64,000 nt of DNA, taken from Streptomyces sp. STR69 (lineage in GTDB: Bacteria; Actinomycetota; Actinomycetes; Streptomycetales; Streptomycetaceae). A model generated the notes under the pieces. The model worked only from the letters and a program-made list of their open reading frames with translations. It was not told the DNA's origin and searched no databases. A program made the translations under genes and the position numbers. The stretch lies in NCBI RefSeq assembly GCF_024519455.1, contig NZ_JALJRY010000016.1, positions 124,001 to 188,000 on the forward strand. Direction: 5' to 3'. This document shows positions 11,596-64,000 of this stretch, piece after piece (the stretch's first letter is position 1; each line of letters starts with the position of its first letter).

Positions 11596-12552
11596 ATGAC
11601 CACCCATCGTCAACAGCACTCCACCACCTGGGTCCGCTACTTCGCCGACCGTGGTCACGGAGACGCCCGACCGCTCGCCGCCGGTGTCGAAGGTGCCGTG
11701 TACCGCCTCGGCGACGGGACGGTCGCCAAGGTGTGGACCGGGCACCGGCCGGCCGCTGTGGACCTCTTACGGCGGGTCTACGACGACATCGCCCGGCACC
11801 CGGCGCCGCTGCCCTTCGCCACCCCGGAGATCCTCACCGTCGAGGAGCACGAAGGCGTCCTCGTCACCTATGAACGTGAGTTGGCAGGGGCACCCCTGCG
11901 GTCCGACTCGGCGGTCGCGGCGCCGCCCAGGGACCTGCCCGTGCGGGAGACCGACGCCCTGCTGACGGTCCTGCGCGCCCTGGCCGCCGTACCCGGCACC
12001 GAGGCCATGCGCCGCCTCACCGTCCAGGGCGACGACCGCCCCCTCTGGGAGGGCCACGCCCGCTTCCCCGACGCGCTCGCCGCCCTCGTCCGGCGTGCCG
12101 TCCGCCGCCATGGCGACCTGCTCGCCGCCAGGGTCCCCGACCTCGCGGCTGTCGTGCGGCGGACCGTCGAGTCCCTGGTGGCGCTGCCGGACAGCCCGTT
12201 CGTCTCCGTCGTGCACGGCGACCTCGTACCGCCCAACATCCACGTCGACGACACCGGCGCCCCCACGGCCGTACTCGACTTCGGGTTCTTCACGACAGCG
12301 GGCGACCCGGCCTTCGAGGCCGCGGTGGCAGCCGCCGTGTGGGACATGTACGGCCCGTACGCGGAGCCGCACACCACCACGCTCACCCACCTGTTCGCCG
12401 CGGAACTCCACCACTCCCCGGCCACGCTCGCCCTGTACCAGCGCGCCTACGCCCTGACGACCTACGACCTGTTCTCCTCGGACGGCGGAGACGGTCACTT
12501 CCGTTGGTGCGCCGCGCTGTTGGGGCGCGGGCCGCTTACGCCGCCGCGCTGA
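11596..12552 (+). CDS. Aminoglycoside-phosphotransferase-fold (APH) kinase
   Basis: 318 residues from ATG 11596. The Gly-rich N-lobe is GVEGAVYRLGDGTVAKVW; catalytic loop VHGDLVPPNIHVDD sits near residue 207 (Brenner motif) and metal-binding LDFGFF near 227. It should phosphorylate a small hydroxylated metabolite or antibiotic; substrate is unreadable. An upstream frame extension to 11545 has no support. Its last 17 bases overlap the end of the convergent GtrA gene. Confidence 0.85.
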   Translation: MTTHRQQHSTTWVRYFADRGHGDARPLAAGVEGAVYRLGDGTVAKVWTGHRPAAVDLLRRVYDDIARHPAPLPFATPEILTVEEHEGVLVTYERELAGAPLRSDSAVAAPPRDLPVRETDALLTVLRALAAVPGTEAMRRLTVQGDDRPLWEGHARFPDALAALVRRAVRRHGDLLAARVPDLAAVVRRTVESLVALPDSPFVSVVHGDLVPPNIHVDDTGAPTAVLDFGFFTTAGDPAFEAAVAAAVWDMYGPYAEPHTTTLTHLFAAELHHSPATLALYQRAYALTTYDLFSSDGGDGHFRWCAALLGRGPLTPPR

Positions 12553-13066
12553 ACACAGGCGCCCCCGGCAGCGGCCGTACCGGAATCGCGACGGTGGCCG
12601 GTGTGCTCCGGTCGGCGAAGACGAACAGGCGCAGGACCAGGAAGCGGCCGATGCCGGCGAGGGCCGAGGCGCTGAGGTAGACGATCTGTTCGGTGAGCAT
12701 GCTGGGGGAGGCCTGGACGGTGTGGAGGACGAGGATCGCGGCGGACGTCGCCGCGTAGGCCGCCGTGGCCGAACCCGCCGACTGCCAGTGCTCGCGCAGA
12801 CCGGGACGGCGCCCGGTGCCGAAGGTGAACAGGGCGTGCAGTTCGGTGCAGAGGATGGTTGACGCGACCGTGATCAGCGCGTTCGCCGCCGCCCAGGGCA
12901 TCAGCGCGGCGAGCAGCGGCACCGCCAGGCTGGACAGGACCCCGACTCCGCCCCCGCACACCACGAACCGGACGAAGGAAGCGAACGGACCGGGAGCGGT
13001 CGTAGTGGTCCCGGTCGTCCCCTCGGTCCCCGCGTTTCCCTGCTTCTGCGAGAGCGGCGACTTCAT
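12536..13066 (-). CDS. GtrA-like small membrane protein
   Basis: 176 residues with about four transmembrane segments (FVRFVVCGGGVGVLSSLAV; ANALITVASTIL; AAYAATSAAILVLHTV; GIGRFLVLRLFVFA). The last, ending in a FLVLRLFVFADR motif, is typical of GtrA-family proteins, thought to help flip or transfer polyprenyl-linked sugars. Start ATG 13066 follows GGAGGG. A second GtrA domain occurs fused to the glycosyltransferase at 19249. No sugar gene adjoins this one. Confidence 0.8.
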   Translation of the reverse strand: MKSPLSQKQGNAGTEGTTGTTTTAPGPFASFVRFVVCGGGVGVLSSLAVPLLAALMPWAAANALITVASTILCTELHALFTFGTGRRPGLREHWQSAGSATAAYAATSAAILVLHTVQASPSMLTEQIVYLSASALAGIGRFLVLRLFVFADRSTPATVAIPVRPLPGAPVFSAAA

Positions 13067-13174
13067 GGGATTTCCCTCCGTACGGCGGCCGTTCGACCTG
13101 CGCCGGTCCTCCTGACCGGCTGAGATCAACGATGCCGTCGTACGGCTGCGGGCACGATGGAGTGCTCTCCCGAA

Positions 13175-13202
13175 CCGTTGGTGTAGCGGGCTCCACCAAC
13201 GG
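13175..13202. terminator. Inverted repeat after the marR gene
   Basis: CCGTTGGTG (13175-13183) and CACCAACGG (13194-13202) are perfect nine-base arms with a ten-base loop, 21 bases beyond the MarR stop on the minus strand. Probable terminator; an operator for the GtrA gene is the alternative. Confidence 0.5.
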
Positions 13203-13222
13203 GGTCGGGCTTACCCCCCGCC

Positions 13223-13708
13223 CTACTCCTCCCGGTCCCGCGCGCGGAGTTCCTCGATGTAGTCCTGCGCCAGCGTCGACGTCCGCGTGAACCAGTCGGC
13301 CAGTACGGCGATCTCCTCGGGGGAGTAGTCGGCGAACTGGGCGTTGAGGCGGTCGTAGTACGGCCCGTAGAGGGCGACGACCCGGGTCACCGCGGCCGGT
13401 ACCGAGGCCACGCGGACGCGGCGGCGGTCGGTGGGGTCGGGGACGCGGGTGATGAAACCGGCCCGTTCCAGCCGGTTGAGGATCCCGGTCACCGCACCCG
13501 TCGTGACGTGGGCGTGCTCCGCCAGGTCGCCTGCAGTGAGGAGGTTCTCGCCCGCCTTCAGGACGCAGGCGAAGCAGAGGAGATCGGTGACGTTCAGGCC
13601 CAGCCGTTCGGCCATTTCCTGCTGGCCGAGCTGGGCGGTGGCGATGAGGGAGTCCATCGCGTCCAGTGCCTGGGCCGGGGTGGCGGCGGGGCGGGGCTTG
13701 GCTTGCAT
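13223..13708 (-). CDS. MarR-family transcriptional regulator
   Basis: 161 residues. The winged HTH comprises LTAGDLAEHAHVTTGAVTGI and LNRLERAGFITRV followed by PDPTDRRRVRV, the classic MarR wing with the Asp/Arg salt-bridge motif. Flanking helices form the dimerisation domain. It begins at ATG 13708, divergent from the membrane protein at 13824; imperfect repeats between them at 13718-13764 are a probable autoregulatory operator. Ligand unknown. Confidence 0.88.
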   Translation of the reverse strand: MQAKPRPAATPAQALDAMDSLIATAQLGQQEMAERLGLNVTDLLCFACVLKAGENLLTAGDLAEHAHVTTGAVTGILNRLERAGFITRVPDPTDRRRVRVASVPAAVTRVVALYGPYYDRLNAQFADYSPEEIAVLADWFTRTSTLAQDYIEELRARDREE

Positions 13709-13717
13709 GGATATTGC

Positions 13718-13764
13718 CTTAGGTAGTGAGAGGTTAATACTCTAAACTTCTTAGATGGTGAGAG
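13718..13764. promoter_or_regulatory. Paired operator-like repeats between divergent marR and membrane gene
   Basis: CTTAGGTAGTGAGAG (13718-13732) recurs as CTTAGATGGTGAGAG (13750-13764), 13 of 15 identical, 32 bases apart. Between them TCTAA-ACTTC-TTAGA (13741-13755) is a perfect inverted repeat. MarR dimers bind such sites near their own promoters. Confidence 0.5.
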
Positions 13765-13823
13765 ATCTGAGGGATCTGTCATCTGTCATCTGTGGTCTGT
13801 GGTCTGTCGAAGGGGGCTGGCAC

Positions 13824-14186
13824 GTGAGCGCACACCAGTATGACGAGGGGCATACGGTCGCCGGGTGGACCGGATTCGGCATCGCGACCGTCGGAACGGC
13901 CGTCGCGGGCGTGGGGGTGTGTACGGTCTCCGCCACGCTGATCGGCGGCGGGCTGGGGATCGTCGTCGTCGGCGTCCTGGTCACCTGGGCGCTCCACCTC
14001 AACGGCTGGGGCAAGCCGCCCGGGCGGCGGGACCGGGCGCAGTGGGGGATGCGGGTACGGGACCCGTTGGCGCGGGCCGGGCACGCCGGGTGTGTCGGGT
14101 GCCGGCTGGCGGGGCGGGGACAACGGGGGGAGGGACGCACGGAGGAGACCCGGCAGCCCGTTCCGGTCGGAGAAACCGCAGGTTGA
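13824..14186 (+). CDS. HGxxPAAW-family small membrane protein
   Basis: About 120 residues with two membrane helices (FGIATVGTAVAGVGVCTVSA and LIGGGLGIVVVGVLVTWALH), the first preceded by HQYDEGHTVAGWTG. That is the H-x(n)-W hallmark of this Streptomyces family of unknown function. The tail is basic and holds CVGC. GTG 13824 is favoured over ATG 13755 because GAAGGGGG precedes it at good spacing and homology begins there. Confidence 0.72.
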   Translation: MSAHQYDEGHTVAGWTGFGIATVGTAVAGVGVCTVSATLIGGGLGIVVVGVLVTWALHLNGWGKPPGRRDRAQWGMRVRDPLARAGHAGCVGCRLAGRGQRGEGRTEETRQPVPVGETAG

Positions 14187-57127: not shown

Positions 57128-57147
57128 GGGCGTGCTCCTCGTCGTGC

Positions 57148-58093
57148 GAGCCCAACGGGGCCTCGTCCAGCTACCTCGGCAAGGACGGCAAATGGCATGG
57201 CCGGGTGACGGTCGGCGTCCGCGATGACGGCAAGCCTGACCGCCGTCACGTCGAGCGGAAGACGAAAGCCGAAGCGACCAAGGCCGTAAGCGAGTTGGAA
57301 CGGACCCGCGACGACAAGAAGCTCCGGAAGCCGGGTAAGGGCTGGACCGTCCAGGGCTGGCTTGAGCACTGGGTCGAGAACATCGCCAAGCCGTACGTCT
57401 CCGAGAACACCTACGCCGGATACGAGGTGGACGTCCGCGTGCACCTGGTCCCGGGTCTCGGTGTCCACCGGCTCGATCGGCTGGAACCCGAGCACCTGGA
57501 GCGCTTCTACCAAAAGATGCAGAGCAACGGCAGCGCGGCCGGCACCGCCCACCACGTGCACCGTACAGTCCGTACCGCCCTCAGTGAGGCAGTACGGCGC
57601 GGACACGTGCCCACCAACGCTGTGCCGAGATCGCCAAGGCGCCTCGACTCGAAGAGGAGGACATCGAGCCGTTCACGATCGAGGAGTTCAGAGCCTGCTC
57701 GTCGAAGTGGCCAAGCTCCGCAACAGTGCACGTCGGGTCGTCGCCCTGGCGCTCGGCCTGCACTGGGAAGACTTCGACATTCTCCGCCGGCACCAGGAGG
57801 CCCACGAGCGGGAGCGCATCGCGGCCGGCACTGACTGGGAGGGCAAGGGATACATCTTCGCCTCGCTGATCGGCGGCCCTCTCAGCCCCAACACCGACTC
57901 CCACACCTGGAAGCGGCTTCTCCGGGACGCGGGCGTACGGAACGGCCGTCTCCACGACGCTCGCCACACCGCAGCGACCGTCCTCCTGATCCTCGGGGCC
58001 CCTGACGTCGTGATCGACTCGATCATGGGTTGGGAGCCAGAGCCAGCCGGTGCGGACAACAAAAACACCGGAGCGGACAAGAAAACCAACTGA
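57148..58093 (+). pseudogene. Tyrosine-recombinase (AICE integrase) pseudogene
   Basis: Three-frame remnant. Frame 1 (to about 57622): PNGASSSYLGKDGKWHGRVT, then the AP2-like and core-binding N-terminal domains. Frame 2 (57624-57688): AEIAKAPRLEEEDIEPFTIE. Frame 3 (57689-58093): SLLVEVAKLRNSARRVVALA, then a jump to RRHQEAHERERIAAGTDWEG; the part between, including the first catalytic Arg, is deleted. The HDARHTAATVLLILGAPDVV box is kept but the end with the catalytic Tyr is lost. No start codon. Not functional. Confidence 0.88.
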
Positions 58094-58117
58094 GACGAAA
58101 ACTGAGACGGACAACGA

Positions 58118-58228
58118 CGAAGGGCCCCACCGCGAACGGTGGGGCCCTTCGACATCGTGCCCGGTGAGGCACTGGCGGAGGATACGAGATTCGAACTCGT
58201 GAGGGGTTGCCCCCAACACGCTTTCCAA
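58118..58228. repeat. Direct repeat (att-like), copy 1
   Basis: 111 bases identical to 62498-62608. It carries hairpin GAAGGGCCCCACCG-CGAA-CGGTGGGGCCCTTC (58119-58150) and the 3' half of tRNA-Ser(GGA) on the minus strand (58176-58228). Identity ends just after the anticodon, where tyrosine integrases of Streptomyces elements commonly cross over. Confidence 0.9.
58176..58227 (-). tRNA. Partial tRNA-Ser(GGA), 3' half only
   Basis: On the minus strand this runs from anticodon GGA through variable arm, T-loop GTTCGAAT and acceptor ATCCTCC plus G. The D-arm side is absent: what precedes it is unrelated. It is an attachment-site duplicate and not a working tRNA. Confidence 0.85.
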
Positions 58229-58362
58229 ATGTTCGTCTGGGGGTTCCGGGGCATACGGGAGCGTTCTGACCTGCGATGGAGTGGGGGTGGTCGGGACTTC
58301 TGGACAGTGCCGTACGCAGGTGAACGCAACCAGAACTGCAACCAGGGCATCTCAGCCGCTGC

Positions 58363-59784
58363 TCATGGTCTGCGCCAGGCGCTGAGCAGTTCGTCGGGAC
58401 CGTACGCCGCATGAAGCCCAGCACAGCTGGTTCCGTTTCGGGAAACCGCCACGAGCGGCACTGGCTCGTCGGTGATCGCCGCCCGGTGCTTCTGCAGTGC
58501 GGCCAGGTCGTGGCTGTCGAGCGGGGAGTTCTCCAGCCACTTGATCGAGCCGAGGAAGAGCAACTGCTTGGCCACCGGCTGCCGGTCGGCGCCCACCAAG
58601 TCGATTTCGACGTCGTTGCTGCGGGTCCAGTAACCGCCGATCGCAGGGGCGGCGGGCAGGAGTCCGTCCGGCAGGAGGCGGGCGAGGGATTCCCGGACCA
58701 GGGGCTCGATCGCGCGGCCCCGCCAACTCGTCCACTGCTCCCTGATCCGGCTCAGTGTGAGATCTCCCCGCATCCGCTCGATCTCCGCCATGTGCGGATC
58801 CAGAAACGCGAGCCAGAACCGCAGGTAGGGGTCTGCCACTCGGTAGCGGCGTTCTTTCGACGGGCGCAGGGAGAGGGGCAGTTCGGCTGCCACCACCCGC
58901 TTCTCGGTCAGGACGTCCGTTGCCCGGGTAAGCGTGGTGTGGGCGATGCCGCCGGCGGCGCGCGCGATGTTGGTGAAGGTTCGTTCTCCGGCTCCGATGG
59001 CACGTAGGACTTCCCTGCTCATCGCCTGCGGTGGGAACTCCGCGGCCAGTGAGCGTTCGGCGGAGACCAGCAGCGCCGAGATCGGGTTGTCGAGCGAGTC
59101 GCGGAGGAACTCCCAGACGTCCGCTCCGGCCCGCCACTCCGCACAGATCAGCGGAAGACCGCCCGTGATCAGGGCGGCGTCGAAAGCGACCGCCGGCGAC
59201 AGGTCGAGCATCTCGCGGATGTCGGCCGGGTTCAGCGGTCCCACGACCATTTCCCGGCCCCGCTGATGGAAGGGGCGGTCGTAGCTGTTCAGCGCCTCCA
59301 TCATCGACAGGTCGGATCCGACCAGGAGGAGGAGCACGGGCTTGCGGCTGAGCAGCCGGTCCCAGGCCCGTTGCAACATCCCCTCGAACGCGTCGATTCG
59401 GTCCATGAGATACGGAACCTCATCGATGACGACCACGCTCGGGCTGTCGTCGGGCAGGACCTCGGCAAGCAGCCTGAACGCCGCATTCCACTGCTCCGGG
59501 GCCTCCTCCGAGAACAGTCCCCGCTCCGGGAGGGTGGATCTGGCGACGGCGTCGAGCAGCTCCGTCAGCTCGTCGTCCGCTGTGCCGCCCGCCGCGGTGA
59601 AGAAGAGGTGCGGCGTCTCGGTGCGCCGGAGGAATTCCTCGACGAGGCTGGACTTGCCGACCCGCCGCCGTCCGCGCATGAGGATGCACTGGCCTGGTTT
59701 CGCCGACCCGGCGGCATCATGAACCGCCTGCAGGGCGTTGCCGAGCACGTTCAGCTCGCGGTCCCGCCCGATGAAGCGACGCAT
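58363..59784 (-). CDS. AAA-family ATPase with DUF234-like, degenerate nuclease-type C-terminus
   Basis: 473 residues. N-terminus MRRFIGRDRELNVLGNALQA, Walker A MRGRRRVGKSSLVEEFL near 41, Walker B VVVIDEVPYLM near 120, sensor VLLLLVGSDLSMM, then winged-helix (VLRAIGAGERTFTNIARAAG) and a PD-(D/E)xK-like end: SNDVEIDLVGADRQPVAK, LFLGSIKW. In place of the usual E-x-K it has S-I-K, so nuclease activity is doubtful. Such archaeal/bacterial ATPases accompany mobile elements. ATG 59784 with GGGAGG. Confidence 0.85.
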   Translation of the reverse strand: MRRFIGRDRELNVLGNALQAVHDAAGSAKPGQCILMRGRRRVGKSSLVEEFLRRTETPHLFFTAAGGTADDELTELLDAVARSTLPERGLFSEEAPEQWNAAFRLLAEVLPDDSPSVVVIDEVPYLMDRIDAFEGMLQRAWDRLLSRKPVLLLLVGSDLSMMEALNSYDRPFHQRGREMVVGPLNPADIREMLDLSPAVAFDAALITGGLPLICAEWRAGADVWEFLRDSLDNPISALLVSAERSLAAEFPPQAMSREVLRAIGAGERTFTNIARAAGGIAHTTLTRATDVLTEKRVVAAELPLSLRPSKERRYRVADPYLRFWLAFLDPHMAEIERMRGDLTLSRIREQWTSWRGRAIEPLVRESLARLLPDGLLPAAPAIGGYWTRSNDVEIDLVGADRQPVAKQLLFLGSIKWLENSPLDSHDLAALQKHRAAITDEPVPLVAVSRNGTSCAGLHAAYGPDELLSAWRRP

Positions 59785-59803
59785 GGCAAGCCTCCCGTAG
59801 GCA

Positions 59804-59840
59804 ATAGTATCGGAAGAGATACTATCCCTGTCGATACCAT
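59804..59840. promoter_or_regulatory. Operator/promoter of the ATPase gene
   Basis: ATAGTATC-GGAAGA-GATACTAT (59804-59825) is a perfect palindrome; a third half-site GATACCAT sits at 59833-59840. Minus-strand TCGACA and TACTAT boxes overlap it. A dedicated regulator, perhaps the WYL-like protein upstream, could bind here. Confidence 0.6.
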
Positions 59841-59848
59841 CGCCTCTT

Positions 59849-62275
59849 TTATTCGGGCATGACGCTGTGGATGCGGGAGAGGGTGAAAACGCGCTCGGCC
59901 TCCCGAAGGTGGCACCAGGCTTCCAGGTACGGCGGGTCGAGTGCGAGGCGGCTGAGGGTGCGCACGGTCCGGCTTCCCGAGGCGGCGACGTACTCGACGG
60001 TGATGGCCTGATCGGCGTCGATGGCATGCGCGAGTTGGCGGATGTCGCTGTACGACAGGCGCTTCGCCCACCCTGCGACGATCTCCTCGGTGTCCGTGGC
60101 GAAGGGCACTCCTCCCTCGAACGGCGCCGGTTCGGGAGTCGTCGGCGGGGCGGCCAGCAGTTGGGCCGCCAGGATGCTCGGGTCGGCAGCGGTGGGAGCC
60201 TTCGCCGCGCGTGTGGCAGCGATCCGGCCGCTGTTCCTCGCGCTCGTGCCGCGTGGAGTGGGAACGGGAGCGGCGGCCCGCTGAGGCCGGGCTTTCTCGA
60301 TGCGTACCGTGCCCTCGGCCGTCTCGGCGACAGGGGCGTACCCCTGGGCCCGGAGCGCGGCGAGGGTCGTGTCGATCGGGCTGCGGCTGATGAGCACCGT
60401 CGGTGCCAGCTGCCGCAGTCCAAGTTTGGCGAGCCCGCGGTGGGCGGCGAGCTCGGCCAGGAGCGCGGGTTCCTCGCCGTGGATGACGCAGGCGGCGGGG
60501 GCGATGCGCACGCGTCCGTGGCCGCGCGCGGTGTCGGCGATCAGATACGACAGCGGCTGTGGCAGGGGCCCGCCGGCGACAGCGGCCAGGTCGGCTGTGA
60601 TGTCCTCGGGGATGCGGCCGGCATCCAGAGCCCGGCGGATGCCGCCGACGCTGAACCGCCACACCGATGCCGTGCCGCTGGTCTCTCGATCGGCGACGGA
60701 ATCCAGGAGCGCGGTCAGCCGCGTGGACGGCGGGCCGGTGACGACGGCGGTGAGGTCGGCGCCGATCCGAGCCACTGCCGTGGCCGACGGGACCAGTCGC
60801 CGGCACTCGATGCTCAGCCCCTCCGTATCGCCGGTCCGCAGGTGGATGCCGAGAGCGGACAGGGCGCCACGTGCGAGTACGCCGAGGAGCTCGGCCTCAC
60901 GGATCACGGTGGCGAACGGCGTTCCGTCCTGGGGTGACGAGTCGGCGAGGGGGCGGTGCCAGGCGATCAGTGGCCCCAGATCCGAGGCGACTCCCGCGCC
61001 CTGCCCTGCCGGGAGCTGTGCTGCTGCGGCCAACAGCCCGAGGCGGGCCTGCACACAGCCGCCGCAGGGTGGCGCTCCGGCGACGGCGGGGAGCGCTCTG
61101 TTGTCCTCGTCGCGCGCCTGGGTGGGGGTGAGCGGCAGGTTCTGCCATGCCTGGAGCAGCACTGCGAACTGCTCCGGGGGTTCCTGTTCCGCCCAGGCGT
61201 CGTATGCCTCGGTGGGGGCCACACGGTCGCCGTCCCGGCCCAGAAGCCCAGCGGCGTACGAGGTCTCCAGGGTGATGCGTACGACAGCGTCGTCGGCCTG
61301 GGCCGCCTTGCCGATCCGGGCCAGTTCACGTGCACCGATCCCGCCGGACTTCAGCCGGGCCGGTGCCGTTGCCGAGCAGGCCGCCAGGACCGAGGCGGCA
61401 TGGGTTACGAAGGCCGTGGCCGCGGCCGATGCTTCGCGATCGGTCTCCGTCGGGGTGACAGATGCCGACCGGGGGCACGGTGGGACGGGCTCGAACGGGA
61501 CGTGCCAGCCGGGCCCGCGCAGCGCGAGTGCCACCTCGGCGGGCATACGCGCCGGGCCGTATCGGTGCCGGTCCTGGATCAGGAGCCCCCGGTCCAGTGC
61601 CCATCGCGCACCCGGTTCGAGGTCGGGCCCAGGAAACCCGGACACGACGAACTGCGGCTGCCTCGTAGCGGCCCGCGCCAGGCGGTCGAGCAGTTTCCGG
61701 GCGGTCTCGGGGGCCTTTGCGATCACGGAGGTGATCTGCTCCGGGTCGCTGTGGTGCTCCACCACGGCGGCCAGTCGGTGCGGCTTGGCGCCCGGCGGCT
61801 TGACGCCCAGTCTCACCAGCATGCCGCGCAGTTCGTCGGAGGTCGTGCCCGCGAGCAGTTCCTCCAGCGGAGCATCCAGCCCAAGGGGTGTGTCCCATGC
61901 CTGCCGCAGCGGTCCGGTCATACGGAGCTGCCCCGCGCCGTCCGGCCAGACCAGAGCGTGATCGGCCAGCGTCTCCAGCACGGTGTCGAGTTCGCGGGTG
62001 GTTGCGTCGTCCACGACTCCCAGCAGTTTCACCAGAGCATCGCGCGATGCGTGGACCCCAAGCGCCGCCAGCGCCTCGGCCACCTGGAGGTGTGGCAGCG
62101 CGAGCCGCGGCAGGATCAGCGCCACCGATCCCGGGCGCTGAAGACGATCCGCCAGTTCCCCCAGCGAACGCGGCTCCGGAAGCGACACGGCGTCCTGCCG
62201 TGCCCCGAGCACGCGCGCCAGACGAGAGCCGTCGAGGCTGCCGAGCCATGTCGCCAGCGTGGATCGGGACTTCAT
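59849..62275 (-). CDS. XPB/Ssl2-like helicase C-terminal-domain protein with WYL-like C-terminus
   Basis: 808 residues. N-terminal helical HTH-rich part (LGELADRLQRPGSVALILPR), the Helicase_C_3 type module at about 570-665 (QPLSYLIADTARGHGRVRIA, LISRSPIDTTLAALRAQGYA), and a WYL-like barrel at about 738-808 (ITVEYVAASGSRTVRTLSRL, YLEAWCHLREAERVFTLSRI). No Walker motifs, so no helicase activity. A housekeeping paralogue exists in Streptomyces; this copy is in the repeat-flanked cassette, 64 bases upstream of the ATPase. I infer DNA/ligand sensing. Confidence 0.78.
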   Translation of the reverse strand: MKSRSTLATWLGSLDGSRLARVLGARQDAVSLPEPRSLGELADRLQRPGSVALILPRLALPHLQVAEALAALGVHASRDALVKLLGVVDDATTRELDTVLETLADHALVWPDGAGQLRMTGPLRQAWDTPLGLDAPLEELLAGTTSDELRGMLVRLGVKPPGAKPHRLAAVVEHHSDPEQITSVIAKAPETARKLLDRLARAATRQPQFVVSGFPGPDLEPGARWALDRGLLIQDRHRYGPARMPAEVALALRGPGWHVPFEPVPPCPRSASVTPTETDREASAAATAFVTHAASVLAACSATAPARLKSGGIGARELARIGKAAQADDAVVRITLETSYAAGLLGRDGDRVAPTEAYDAWAEQEPPEQFAVLLQAWQNLPLTPTQARDEDNRALPAVAGAPPCGGCVQARLGLLAAAAQLPAGQGAGVASDLGPLIAWHRPLADSSPQDGTPFATVIREAELLGVLARGALSALGIHLRTGDTEGLSIECRRLVPSATAVARIGADLTAVVTGPPSTRLTALLDSVADRETSGTASVWRFSVGGIRRALDAGRIPEDITADLAAVAGGPLPQPLSYLIADTARGHGRVRIAPAACVIHGEEPALLAELAAHRGLAKLGLRQLAPTVLISRSPIDTTLAALRAQGYAPVAETAEGTVRIEKARPQRAAAPVPTPRGTSARNSGRIAATRAAKAPTAADPSILAAQLLAAPPTTPEPAPFEGGVPFATDTEEIVAGWAKRLSYSDIRQLAHAIDADQAITVEYVAASGSRTVRTLSRLALDPPYLEAWCHLREAERVFTLSRIHSVMPE

Positions 62276-62491
62276 GCGACGTGCACCTCGTCAGACCAGG
62301 GAGCTTCGTAGCGGGCCCGGGTTCAAGGATGGCGTATCCCCGTGATCCGCGGGTGCCGCAAGGGGCAGGTTCCCCCTTGGCGGGCGTCGGCGGCTTGTGG
62401 GCCGCCGCAATTGCGGCGCGAGAGGGCCGACGGATCGGCTAAATGTCTGAAATGGAAGCTTATAAATGCAACCAGAAATGCAACCAGTGCA

Positions 62492-62537
62492 CGATGTCGA
62501 AGGGCCCCACCGCGAACGGTGGGGCCCTTCGACATCG
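62492..62537. terminator. 21-bp perfect hairpin at repeat 2
   Basis: CGATGTCGAAGGGCCCCACC+G pairs fully with its complement around CGAA, extending the hairpin present in copy 1 by seven bases. In copy 1 the left side differs. Likely terminator for an integrase now gone. Confidence 0.65.
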
Positions 62538-62608
62538 TGCCCGGTGAGGCACTGGCGGAGGATACGAGATTCGAACTCGTGAGGGGTTGCCCCCAACACG
62601 CTTTCCAA
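62498..62608. repeat. Direct repeat (att-like), copy 2
   Basis: Identical over 111 bases to 58118-58228, offset 4,380 bases. It includes another partial tRNA-Ser(GGA) 3' half (62556-62607, minus strand). The flanks differ in both directions: left is a TGCAACCAG repeat, right GC-rich sequence of unknown origin. Confidence 0.9.
62556..62607 (-). tRNA. Partial tRNA-Ser(GGA), second 3' half
   Basis: Same as 58176-58227. The 5' half is not here either; an intact tRNA-Ser(GGA) should exist outside the window, to the right if elements were stacked at one site. Confidence 0.85.
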
Positions 62609-63241
62609 CTGTGGGGGTGAGGTGGCGGGGTGCATTCGGGGGCGTTCACTTGGGTTCATGGGCGGTTGGCCCGTGTGGTGAGCCCGACGCGCGGCCTCCA
62701 CTGAACAACCGTGAACGGTGGTGAATGAGACGGAAACTGAGACGGGGGAGGCTGCTTCACTCTTCGCCAGATGGGGATGAGGCGGTCGGCGTCGTCCATC
62801 TGTCCGTGGGCGTCGAGCACCTGCACAGTAAACGGCCCGTTGTCGGGTTCCGGGTCCTTTCAGCACGACCTCCAGCCGCCTCCCAGGATGGAAGCGACCA
62901 CTTGGTCGGTCTGCTCAAGGTGGGAGAAGTTTCGCAGTAGGCCGTGACCGGGCGGTGGGTACCGCGCTTGGGATCGACTTCGAGGGCAACATCCGTTTTC
63001 TTGTCCCAGGTGAATAGAACAGCGGACGGTCGGCAGGCACATTTTTAACCAGTTTGGAGGACAGCATGCTGTCGGACGTCACGGCTTTCCGCACTCGGAA
63101 ATAATGGGCCCTCACTGATCATTCGGTGCACCCCAATGGAAGACAAGCGTGACTCTGGTACGACCCGTGGGAAATCTCGGATAAACATGCATAGAAGCCT
63201 ATTGGGTCGGTCTTGCGCCCAAGTTCCGTCAAAGTTCGCCG
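62609..63241. other. Low-GC gene-free interval
   Basis: No convincing gene. TGAGACGGAAACTGAGACGG (62726-62745) repeats the integrase-remnant stop region at 58091-58110 with one difference. A 12-codon frame with a good ribosome site (63066) is too short to judge. GC drops noticeably toward the right. Confidence 0.5.
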
Positions 63242-64000
63242 TCACAATTTTGCCAGTCGCTTCAAAAGCGTTCGATATTGAGTGATAAATTCATCAGGTT
63301 CGCGAGGGTCGCTCCCATAGAAACAGGCGGAGTCGACACCGTGTTCGTCGTCTAGTCGGAGCTCTTTACGCAGGTGCTTCAGAAGGGTTGCGTCTACTTC
63401 GTGGCCGTCGCTGCGGTACCCGACTGTAGCGCCGTAAGTTCTCACTTTTGAGAGACCGAACAAGCCTTTCGCTTGAACCGTACGCTGTACCTTGATCCTA
63501 TTTCCAGGCATTGGAGAGCCGATCTGACAGTCAAATCGAGAAAGGATTCGACGGAGTTCGCGCCATTTCAGTAGGCGGTCTCCATGCTGTATTTGCCGAC
63601 TATTTTTCAGGACCCATCGAGCAATTTCTTGAACTTCTCGATCGGCGACTGAACTCCAGCCAGTTGGCACAAGACGGTGTTGAGCTACCTTCAAAACCAA
63701 CTTGAACAAGTCGCGCTCTGTGCAAGTGAGAAGCACATTATTCCGGTCTAGGAAGGCTAGGGCCGAGACGAGAGCGGTACGCTTGTTTCCATTATGAAAT
63801 GGATGGTTGTGGATAATTGAGTGCAGCAATGCCGCACCAGCCAGTTCGACGGTCGAGTATTTACGCTCACCGCCCAGAGAGGTGCCAGGGCGAAACGCAG
63901 CAGATTCCAGAAGGTTATTGTCTCGCACTCCGGGTGGATCAATTGGGTCCTTAGAAACTCTGAAATCCTCCACAAGAGCGTCGTGGATGCTGTGAATGTC
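63242..64000 (-). CDS. Fic/Doc-type toxin fused to HicA-like domain (5' end beyond window)
   Basis: The frame is open to the window edge (DIHSIHDALVEDFRVSKDPI), so the N-terminus is missing; GTG 63973 is internal. Doc signature HNHPFHNGNKRTAL, with LLESAAFRPG upstream. The C-terminal about 100 residues, KWRELRRILSRFDCQIGSPM then GNRIKVQRTVQ and SDGHEVDATLLKHLRKELRL, look like the HicA dsRNA-binding fold. Doc proteins phosphorylate EF-Tu, HicA cleaves mRNA. GC here is far below the window average, indicating transfer. No antitoxin is visible within the window. Confidence 0.75.
   Translation of the reverse strand, partial: DIHSIHDALVEDFRVSKDPIDPPGVRDNNLLESAAFRPGTSLGGERKYSTVELAGAALLHSIIHNHPFHNGNKRTALVSALAFLDRNNVLLTCTERDLFKLVLKVAQHRLVPTGWSSVADREVQEIARWVLKNSRQIQHGDRLLKWRELRRILSRFDCQIGSPMPGNRIKVQRTVQAKGLFGLSKVRTYGATVGYRSDGHEVDATLLKHLRKELRLDDEHGVDSACFYGSDPREPDEFITQYRTLLKRLAKL

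Follow-up and report, generated by a model that had tools for sequence, protein, structure and literature searches.

What holds together two genes that lie between repeated fragments of a tRNA gene in a Streptomyces chromosome: a shared function, or only a shared vehicle? The question is raised by a 64,000-nucleotide stretch of Streptomyces sp. STR69 (contig NZ_JALJRY010000016.1, positions 124,001 to 188,000 of the forward strand; hereafter the window), part of a genome assembly of 10.7 Mb in 130 contigs. A preliminary description, made from the letters of the window, had pointed to two open reading frames, here called gene A and gene B, as a possible defence module composed of an XPB-C/WYL-like protein and an AAA-DUF234-like ATPase, held between mobile-element sites and under dedicated regulation. 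Both genes are present on the minus strand with the domain types described. Our results favor a reading in which A and B together are one version of a two-slot cassette at the attachment (att) site in tRNA-Ser(GGA), with A as a putative partner of the XPB helicase and B as a stand-alone defence candidate. We assign this reading as a whole a probability of about one half. Its cassette structure is well supported by sequence comparison; XPB binding, mobility and defence are what we infer from it. The features on which the argument rests are as follows, in coordinates of the window unless a contig is named.

62275-59849, minus strand: gene A, 808 aa, with Helicase_C_3 and WYL domains; constant first gene of the cassettes and paralog of an XPB-neighbour protein, as judged by homology
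59784-58363, minus strand: gene B, 473 aa, an AAA ATPase with a DUF234 C-terminus and a match to the PDC-S27 profile; its ExK motif reads SxK
62491-62612, minus strand: upstream att copy, consisting of the 3' half of tRNA-Ser(GGA) and the inverted repeat behind it
58111-58232, minus strand: downstream att copy, 97% identical to the upstream copy and 100% identical to the third copy
C38:200693-200814 (own coordinate 76693): third att copy, 14 kb further on

The cassette at tRNA-Ser(GGA)

The mobile-element sites of the preliminary description proved to be direct repeats of 122 bp, 97% identical to each other, that flank A and B. Each repeat runs from the anticodon loop of tRNA-Ser(GGA) through its 3' end and the inverted repeat that follows. 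The entire tRNA-Ser(GGA) gene sits on another contig of the same genome (C55), and the repeat or its tRNA is present in 196 of 199 sampled genomes of the genus (E 1e-15). The A-B unit has att at both sides and carries no integrase or transfer genes of its own.

The unit recurs as a whole elsewhere. In one genome of the genus sample (G128), a copy that runs from one att to the other shows 97% identity over 4505 bp and lies directly at tRNA-Ser(GGA); the 19 kb taken from that genome contain nothing that matches the 2-kb flanks of the window copy at E 1e-5. In S. prunicolor (locus L168), the unit is 93% identical over 4452 bp. These comparisons support horizontal movement or exchange, the boundaries of which would lie at att.

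A search of genome contigs with a profile of the A alignment returned 273 relatives; all counts out of 80 loci given here refer to the best 80 of these, which are found in Streptomyces, Kitasatospora, Actinacidiphila and Mangrovactinospora. An att copy lies 5' of A in the fetched DNA at 68 of the 80 loci, and within 1 kb at 46. We defined the second slot as the DNA from A to the next att, or within 2.6 kb, and scored it by tblastn with relics included. It holds VapBC at 16 of the 80 loci, a match to B or a relic of it at 12 (7 of them full-length), an HNH nuclease at 11 (6 of them together with RHH-PIN), and RHH-PIN alone at 1. Closed cassettes, with att less than 1 kb before A and less than 4 kb behind it, number 22 of the 80 and measure 2.7 to 6.2 kb. 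A recognised module fills the second slot in 19 of these 22 (9 VapBC, 6 HNH, of which 4 with RHH-PIN, 3 B and 1 RHH-PIN), 1 consists of A alone, and 2 are unassigned. As an example of a second-slot module, the pair at locus L099 consists of a VapB_antitoxin domain (E 4.1e-12) next to a PIN domain (E 3.7e-14). In a quick tree built from 77 A proteins (the window copy and those of 76 loci), the slot label is clustered, changing 18 times against a mean of 35.9 when labels are shuffled (0 of 200 shuffles as low), yet it still changes at least 5 times when empty slots are ignored. Judged from these comparisons, A is the constant and first gene, and the second slot varies, being occupied by VapBC, an HNH nuclease, B, RHH-PIN or, once, a second AAA-DUF234 ATPase.

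This second AAA-DUF234 ATPase (28% identical) was observed at three loci (L203:5493-6965, L167:4942-6414 and L090:3784-5367); it follows A in L203 and lies without A between the same att repeats in L090. The GEAKW motif is kept in all 3 rows, and the L203 copy also matches PDC-S27. Locus L203 was scored as B through a relic of 19 residues, its main second-slot gene being the other ATPase. The 19-residue stretch is 89% identical to B, is situated between A and the other ATPase, and is perhaps the trace of a past slot exchange. At B loci the slot scoring gives DUF234b beside B: the two families cross-match.

Several observations weigh against the cassette reading. No att was seen upstream of A in the fetched DNA at 12 of the 80 loci, and none within 1 kb upstream at 34; at 6 of the 80, the fetched DNA ends less than 700 bp from the start of A. 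The second slot is without a recognised module in 40 of the 80 loci. We had chosen the reference families for slot scoring among the loci encountered earliest, so other families may be present in the 40 unrecognised slots; Pfam searches on six of them gave unrelated families or none. In addition, the VapBC pair of L099, the one pair tested, is not listed by PADLOC.

Gene A, its XPB-adjacent paralog and TFIIH p52

What kind of protein is the constant gene product? Pfam places Helicase_C_3 at residues 505-624 of A (E 2.8e-30) and WYL at 746-805 (E 9.5e-8). The same genome encodes a homolog of 908 aa (C41:8949-11675), upstream of an XPB helicase gene (12318-13973). The two proteins align by hhalign (100%, E 2.3e-59, 763 columns) and share the order Helicase_C_3-WYL. 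By this homology, A is a paralog, over its full length, of a protein whose gene adjoins that of XPB. A itself is an island gene and is not next to XPB. Helicase_C_3 also occurs in the paralog (E 6.8e-47) and at the N-terminus of XPB (E 5.1e-40), and the paralog matches the XPB N-terminus by BLASTP at E 2e-11.

The pairing of paralog and XPB extends beyond this strain. In a class-level sample of 79 genomes, XPB (at E 1e-80) was found in 64 and the paralog (its C-terminal half, at E 1e-25) in 65. Both are present in 63 of the 79 genomes, neither in 13, and 3 are discordant (Fisher p 5e-12, a value that overstates independence because the sampled genomes are related). Among the 56 genomes with both genes on one contig, the paralog lies upstream of XPB on the same strand in 55, and within 6 kb in 54 of these; the gap is 500 bp or less in 26 genomes. 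The exceptions are G254, with the genes 23 kb apart, and G228, with the genes on opposite strands. In 7 genomes the two are on different contigs. For G217 and G262, in which genes are split over contigs, a weaker fragment beside the partner was used; best matches only would place these two under "different contigs". The genes for the paralog and XPB are thus a conserved pair throughout the class, and the paralog is a candidate bacterial XPB cofactor. Since A is a full-length paralog of this XPB-adjacent protein, A may be a mobile XPB partner. M. tuberculosis Rv0862c is presumably an example of the actinobacterial XPB-neighbour protein. A resembles the XPB-neighbour protein of its own genome over its full length and in domain order, and differs from it in being patchy (31 of the 199 genus genomes, queried with the first 382 residues of A at E 1e-40), away from XPB, and carried in tRNA-bounded cassettes.

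An AlphaFold2 model of A, built from 55 sequences, has a mean pLDDT of 68.7. Confidence is at 70-92 over much of the first 495 residues and poor where Helicase_C_3 begins, in the linker that precedes WYL and at the C-terminus. When the model was compared with the PDB by Foldseek, TFIIH entries ranked 1, 2, 3, 6, 10, 13, 17 and 25 of 296, with 9pd3_D first (E 2.3e-3, prob 0.97). Those chains that are not titled p52 we take to be p52/Tfb2 by their label and length. In VIA-align, such TFIIH chains match A with Z of 7.7-8.7 over 157-268 residues (rmsd 5.0-20.1); the VIA list for A consists mostly of single winged-helix matches at residues 56-132, and the absence of other folds from it is uninformative. 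SspB came up at ranks 7 and 9 of the Foldseek list, matches that we considered too weak to use.

In human TFIIH, the XPB N-terminal domain and the clutch of p52 are homologous and form a pseudo-symmetric dimer, and p52 stimulates XPB (PMC6422496). Because these two domains are homologous and dimerise, we read A and its paralog as possibly p52-like in working principle. The likeness would consist in the best, although marginal, fold matches of the A model and in the succession of a winged-helix-like part and a domain of the XPB N-terminus family. The difference is that A has no sequence match to p52 and ends in WYL rather than in a p8-binding module. We do not file A and the paralog as p52 members, because neither matches a p52 profile and the C-terminus is WYL. 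It was stated in 2012 that no bacterial homologs had been found for any TFIIH subunit except XPB and XPD (PMC3353954). In the literature that we searched, which was partly sampled and came largely from outside subscription journals, no bacterial p52-like or XPB partner protein was reported, and no report of Helicase_C_3 with WYL was found.

Several results speak against the p52 comparison. With the isolated N-terminal domain of XPB, A gives a weak hhalign match (prob 7.8, E 0.0045). The model of A falls below pLDDT 50 in a number of stretches, including 499-541, 587-594, 662-696, 714-735 and 776-808. As a fold match, p52 is marginal: none of the Foldseek hits attains E 1e-3, the TM-scores by query length are 0.08-0.15 for the TFIIH rows, and of these rows just three, at ranks 2, 17 and 25, carry p52 in their titles. 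No p52 family is among the Pfam hits of A (E up to 1) or of the paralog (E up to 0.01), and neither a profile nor a phmmer search of PDB sequences with A or the paralog returned a p52 chain. PDB sequence searches with A, the paralog and the clutch-like part of the latter found no informative relative except PafC, through its WYL part. A more far-reaching reading, which we judge unlikely as a whole, is that Actinobacteria possess a p52-like XPB partner and that A, its mobile copy in Streptomyces islands, forms the constant core of a modular immunity cassette, steering the host XPB onto foreign DNA while a swappable second-slot effector (AAA-DUF234 ATPase, VapBC or HNH nuclease) kills or arrests. 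If this were true, part of the TFIIH core would be older or more widespread than thought.

Gene B and its association with gene A

Gene B has an AAA_16/ATPase_2-type domain and DUF234 at residues 324-418 (E 3.4e-10), and its Walker A and Walker B motifs are invariant in the aligned homologs. The preliminary description had read the C-terminus as a degenerate PD-(D/E)xK domain, and this was confirmed: D395 and K415 are invariant, and the E of ExK is replaced by S413 in 22 of 22 aligned homologs, so that no intact catalytic motif is found (S413-x-K415). B matches both PADLOC profiles of PDC-S27, with 81.6 bits (E 1.4e-23, residues 1-363) and 66.9 bits, in a library without a printed cut-off. PDC-S27, an untested PADLOC candidate, is described as a single gene with an ATPase and a PD-(D/E)-X-K domain (PMC12988326). 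B differs from it in having S for E in ExK and, here, in sharing a cassette with A. An AlphaFold2 model of B from 12 sequences (mean pLDDT 39.8) was discarded, and the domains of B are those assigned by Pfam. PDB sequence searches with B gave no informative relative. In viral contigs, searched with a profile of B, 53 stretches fit a pattern, and none of them codes for a relative. Phage records matched at E 1e-5 number 5 for B (24-25% identity) and 1 for A, and plasmid records matched at E 1e-40 number 3 for each gene. The DNA of the region matches 3 plasmid records, each covering 2-4% of the query.

Both genes have intact homologs in other genomes, and dN/dS is 0.28-0.43 for A against the window copy (7 pairs) and 0.09-0.16 for B (6 pairs), which argues that they are more than chance open reading frames. 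Among five other pairs of A, dN/dS is 0.26-0.59. On these estimates, purifying selection is stronger on B than on A. That the values for A are not very low, 0.59 being reached in one close pair, is a point against the reading that we prefer.

Is B the dedicated partner of A? The preliminary description suggested a two-gene system, which would mean that A uses its WYL and winged-helix parts to detect DNA that is invading or damaged, and that it licenses B, the ATPase. The co-occurrence that this requires does extend beyond the strain: complete, colinear copies of both genes occur in 4 of the 199 genus genomes (the own genome, G128, G062 and G140), and B or a relic of it occupies the slot after A in 12 of the 80 loci, two sets that overlap (as with G062 and L167). 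The conservation of the unit in G128 amid unrelated flanks also fits a dedicated system, as do the 11 of 13 B-labelled rows that fall in one clade of 18 on the A tree. The closest relatives of B are indeed enriched in genomes that have A; the close B clade, which is represented in 18 genomes, occurs together with A in 8 of them where 2.8 are expected (p 0.002). However, this does not hold for B as a whole. B was found in 58 of the 199 genomes (E 1e-40, fragments included), and A and B share a genome in 10 cases against 9.0 expected (p 0.67). Judged by coordinates, only 4 of the 58 B-matching genomes have B directly behind A. In G107, G101, G008 and G180, full-length B is preceded by 3' pieces of A only; G107 has B and a complete A in neighbouring cassettes, B first. 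At most other loci of the close clade, homology starts with the final bases of A or within the spacer. The more distant B clade (about 69%) is located elsewhere, often in a conserved chromosomal neighbourhood. Given the few cases behind A, the partial relics of A and the chromosomal location of the 69% clade, B is, on this distribution, mostly a stand-alone gene. The preliminary description had itself named a largely stand-alone ATPase as an outcome that would speak against its proposal, and this is to a large extent what we observe. Other cassettes pair A with VapBC or HNH in place of B, VapBC being commoner after A than B and HNH about as common, and B has its own upstream boxes. We therefore regard a dedicated two-gene defence system as distinctly improbable. 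The term "two-gene module" is true of the vehicle and not of a dedicated system.

The dedicated regulation that had been proposed takes the form of a putative operator between A and B.

59803-59841, minus strand: three GATA-TATC-like boxes, putative operator of B; positions read from the sequence

We compared the corresponding upstream regions of B homologs (window 59785-59874 and loci L067-L123). Among the 17 B genes with at least 77% identity, the window included, 15 have GATA-TATC boxes 5' of them, and L076 and L082 do not. These boxes were counted by eye in the close clade, and a looser pattern (21 of 32) also takes in some rows of the 69% clade. The latter clade has triple CTAAC/GTTAG boxes at the equivalent place, just 5' of the start codon. 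The presence of clade-specific boxes upstream of B suggests that B is autoregulated. As seen by eye, second-slot modules start soon after the stop codon of A, each with upstream boxes of its own, and the motif upstream of vapBC differs from the GATA-TATC of B.

These boxes also bear on the possibility that A acts as a guard, a WYL regulator that represses a second-slot toxin or nuclease until DNA damage or infection occurs. The WYL domain and the winged-helix-like region at about 56-132 would suit such a regulator, the A profile matches the WYL part of PafC (E 0.001), and the second-slot companions are toxin or nuclease genes. However, since the companions have different boxes, a single regulator A would need to read many operators. 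Moreover, vapBC is, as a matter of general knowledge, usually regulated by VapB, and loci with B only persist without A. We consider a guard function of A quite unlikely.

The tandem att array and a working reading of the cassette

The A-B unit, itself free of an integrase gene, lies between an actinomycete integrative and conjugative element (AICE) and an integrase relic and so belongs to a tandem att array. Its neighbours are the following.

57146-58111, plus strand: integrase relic, 93-94% identical in DNA to the AICE integrase gene (from blastn pieces 57146-57759 and 57779-58038)
62613-64000: near end of a pSAM2-type AICE, which continues past the window to C38:200692
63242-64000, minus strand: Fic/Doc protein, cargo of the near end of the AICE; its 5' end lies outside the window

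The AICE spans own coordinates 62613-76692, between the second and third repeats, and shares its att with the A-B unit, with which it stands in tandem. It holds a full-length tyrosine integrase of 419 aa (75416-76675) with Phage_integrase and SAM-like domains. Its other genes include an HTH_17 excisionase-like gene, a RepSA-like gene, GntR and NUDIX genes, and a gene that was named FtsK/TraSA-like by eye. The RepSA-like gene (74463-75188, L066:2463-3188) matches only positions 206-436 of the RepSA profile, which has 438; the gene may therefore be a truncated one, or its start may have been miscalled. With regard to the site in general, tRNA-Ser(GGA) adjoins a dnaX-like gene (named by eye) in 13 loci (L067, L071, L074, L088, L094 and others), and it carries many other att-bounded segments, 28 of 37 among those listed being without a match to A.

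At Streptomyces tRNA-Arg, accretion of AICEs has been described, and remaining genes flanked by direct repeats are there considered as possibly mobilised in cis (PMC9513070). The A-B unit resembles such cis-mobilizable elements in being bounded by att, lacking an integrase and standing in tandem with an AICE of the same att. It differs from accretion products in that it is small, recurs across the genus and consists of one constant and one variable gene, rather than being the remnant of a single AICE. In the literature searched, we found no account of a recurrent cassette of this constant-plus-variable kind at tRNA-Ser(GGA), built on a mobile XPB-neighbour paralog.

Such an array raises the possibility that both genes are passengers in a decaying accretion product, in which A would be a hitch-hiking homology arm, kept mainly because second genes are exchanged by recombination between A and att, and would have no role in defence. 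The tandem array with its integrase relic fits this explanation, several loci have a truncated A or B, the dN/dS of A is only moderately low, and the accounts of AICE accretion and decay at Streptomyces tRNA genes (PMC9513070) provide a precedent. A pure homology arm, however, does not need an open frame, and the reading frame of A is uninterrupted over more than 780 codons in 76 of the 80 loci, a count in which intact copies are favored because the 80 are the best-scoring of 273. The Helicase_C_3 and WYL residues of A are also conserved across the 55 aligned sequences. We find the passenger explanation possible but doubtful.

The reading that we prefer remains that of a two-slot cassette with a putative XPB partner in the first slot. 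An AICE integrase, or RecA acting on the repeats, would move and stack the cassettes, as has been proposed for remnants that might be mobilised in cis. A would bind the N-terminal domain of the host XPB via its clutch-like Helicase_C_3 domain and would alter, or compete for, the XPB translocase, somewhat like p52 in TFIIH, with WYL as the sensor. B would be a stand-alone candidate for defence: an ATPase under regulation of its own that detects nucleic acid, foreign or damaged, and does not act through canonical PD-(D/E)xK catalysis. A and the gene in the second slot would share a vehicle and probably a purpose, either the keeping of the island or defence, without forming a dedicated pair.

Should A and the chromosomal paralog prove to be partners of XPB, this poorly understood bacterial helicase would gain a cofactor and a link to TFIIH. 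The arrangement of a constant gene and a swappable module at tRNA-Ser(GGA) would also provide a rule for mining Streptomyces genomes for toxin-antitoxin and candidate defence genes.

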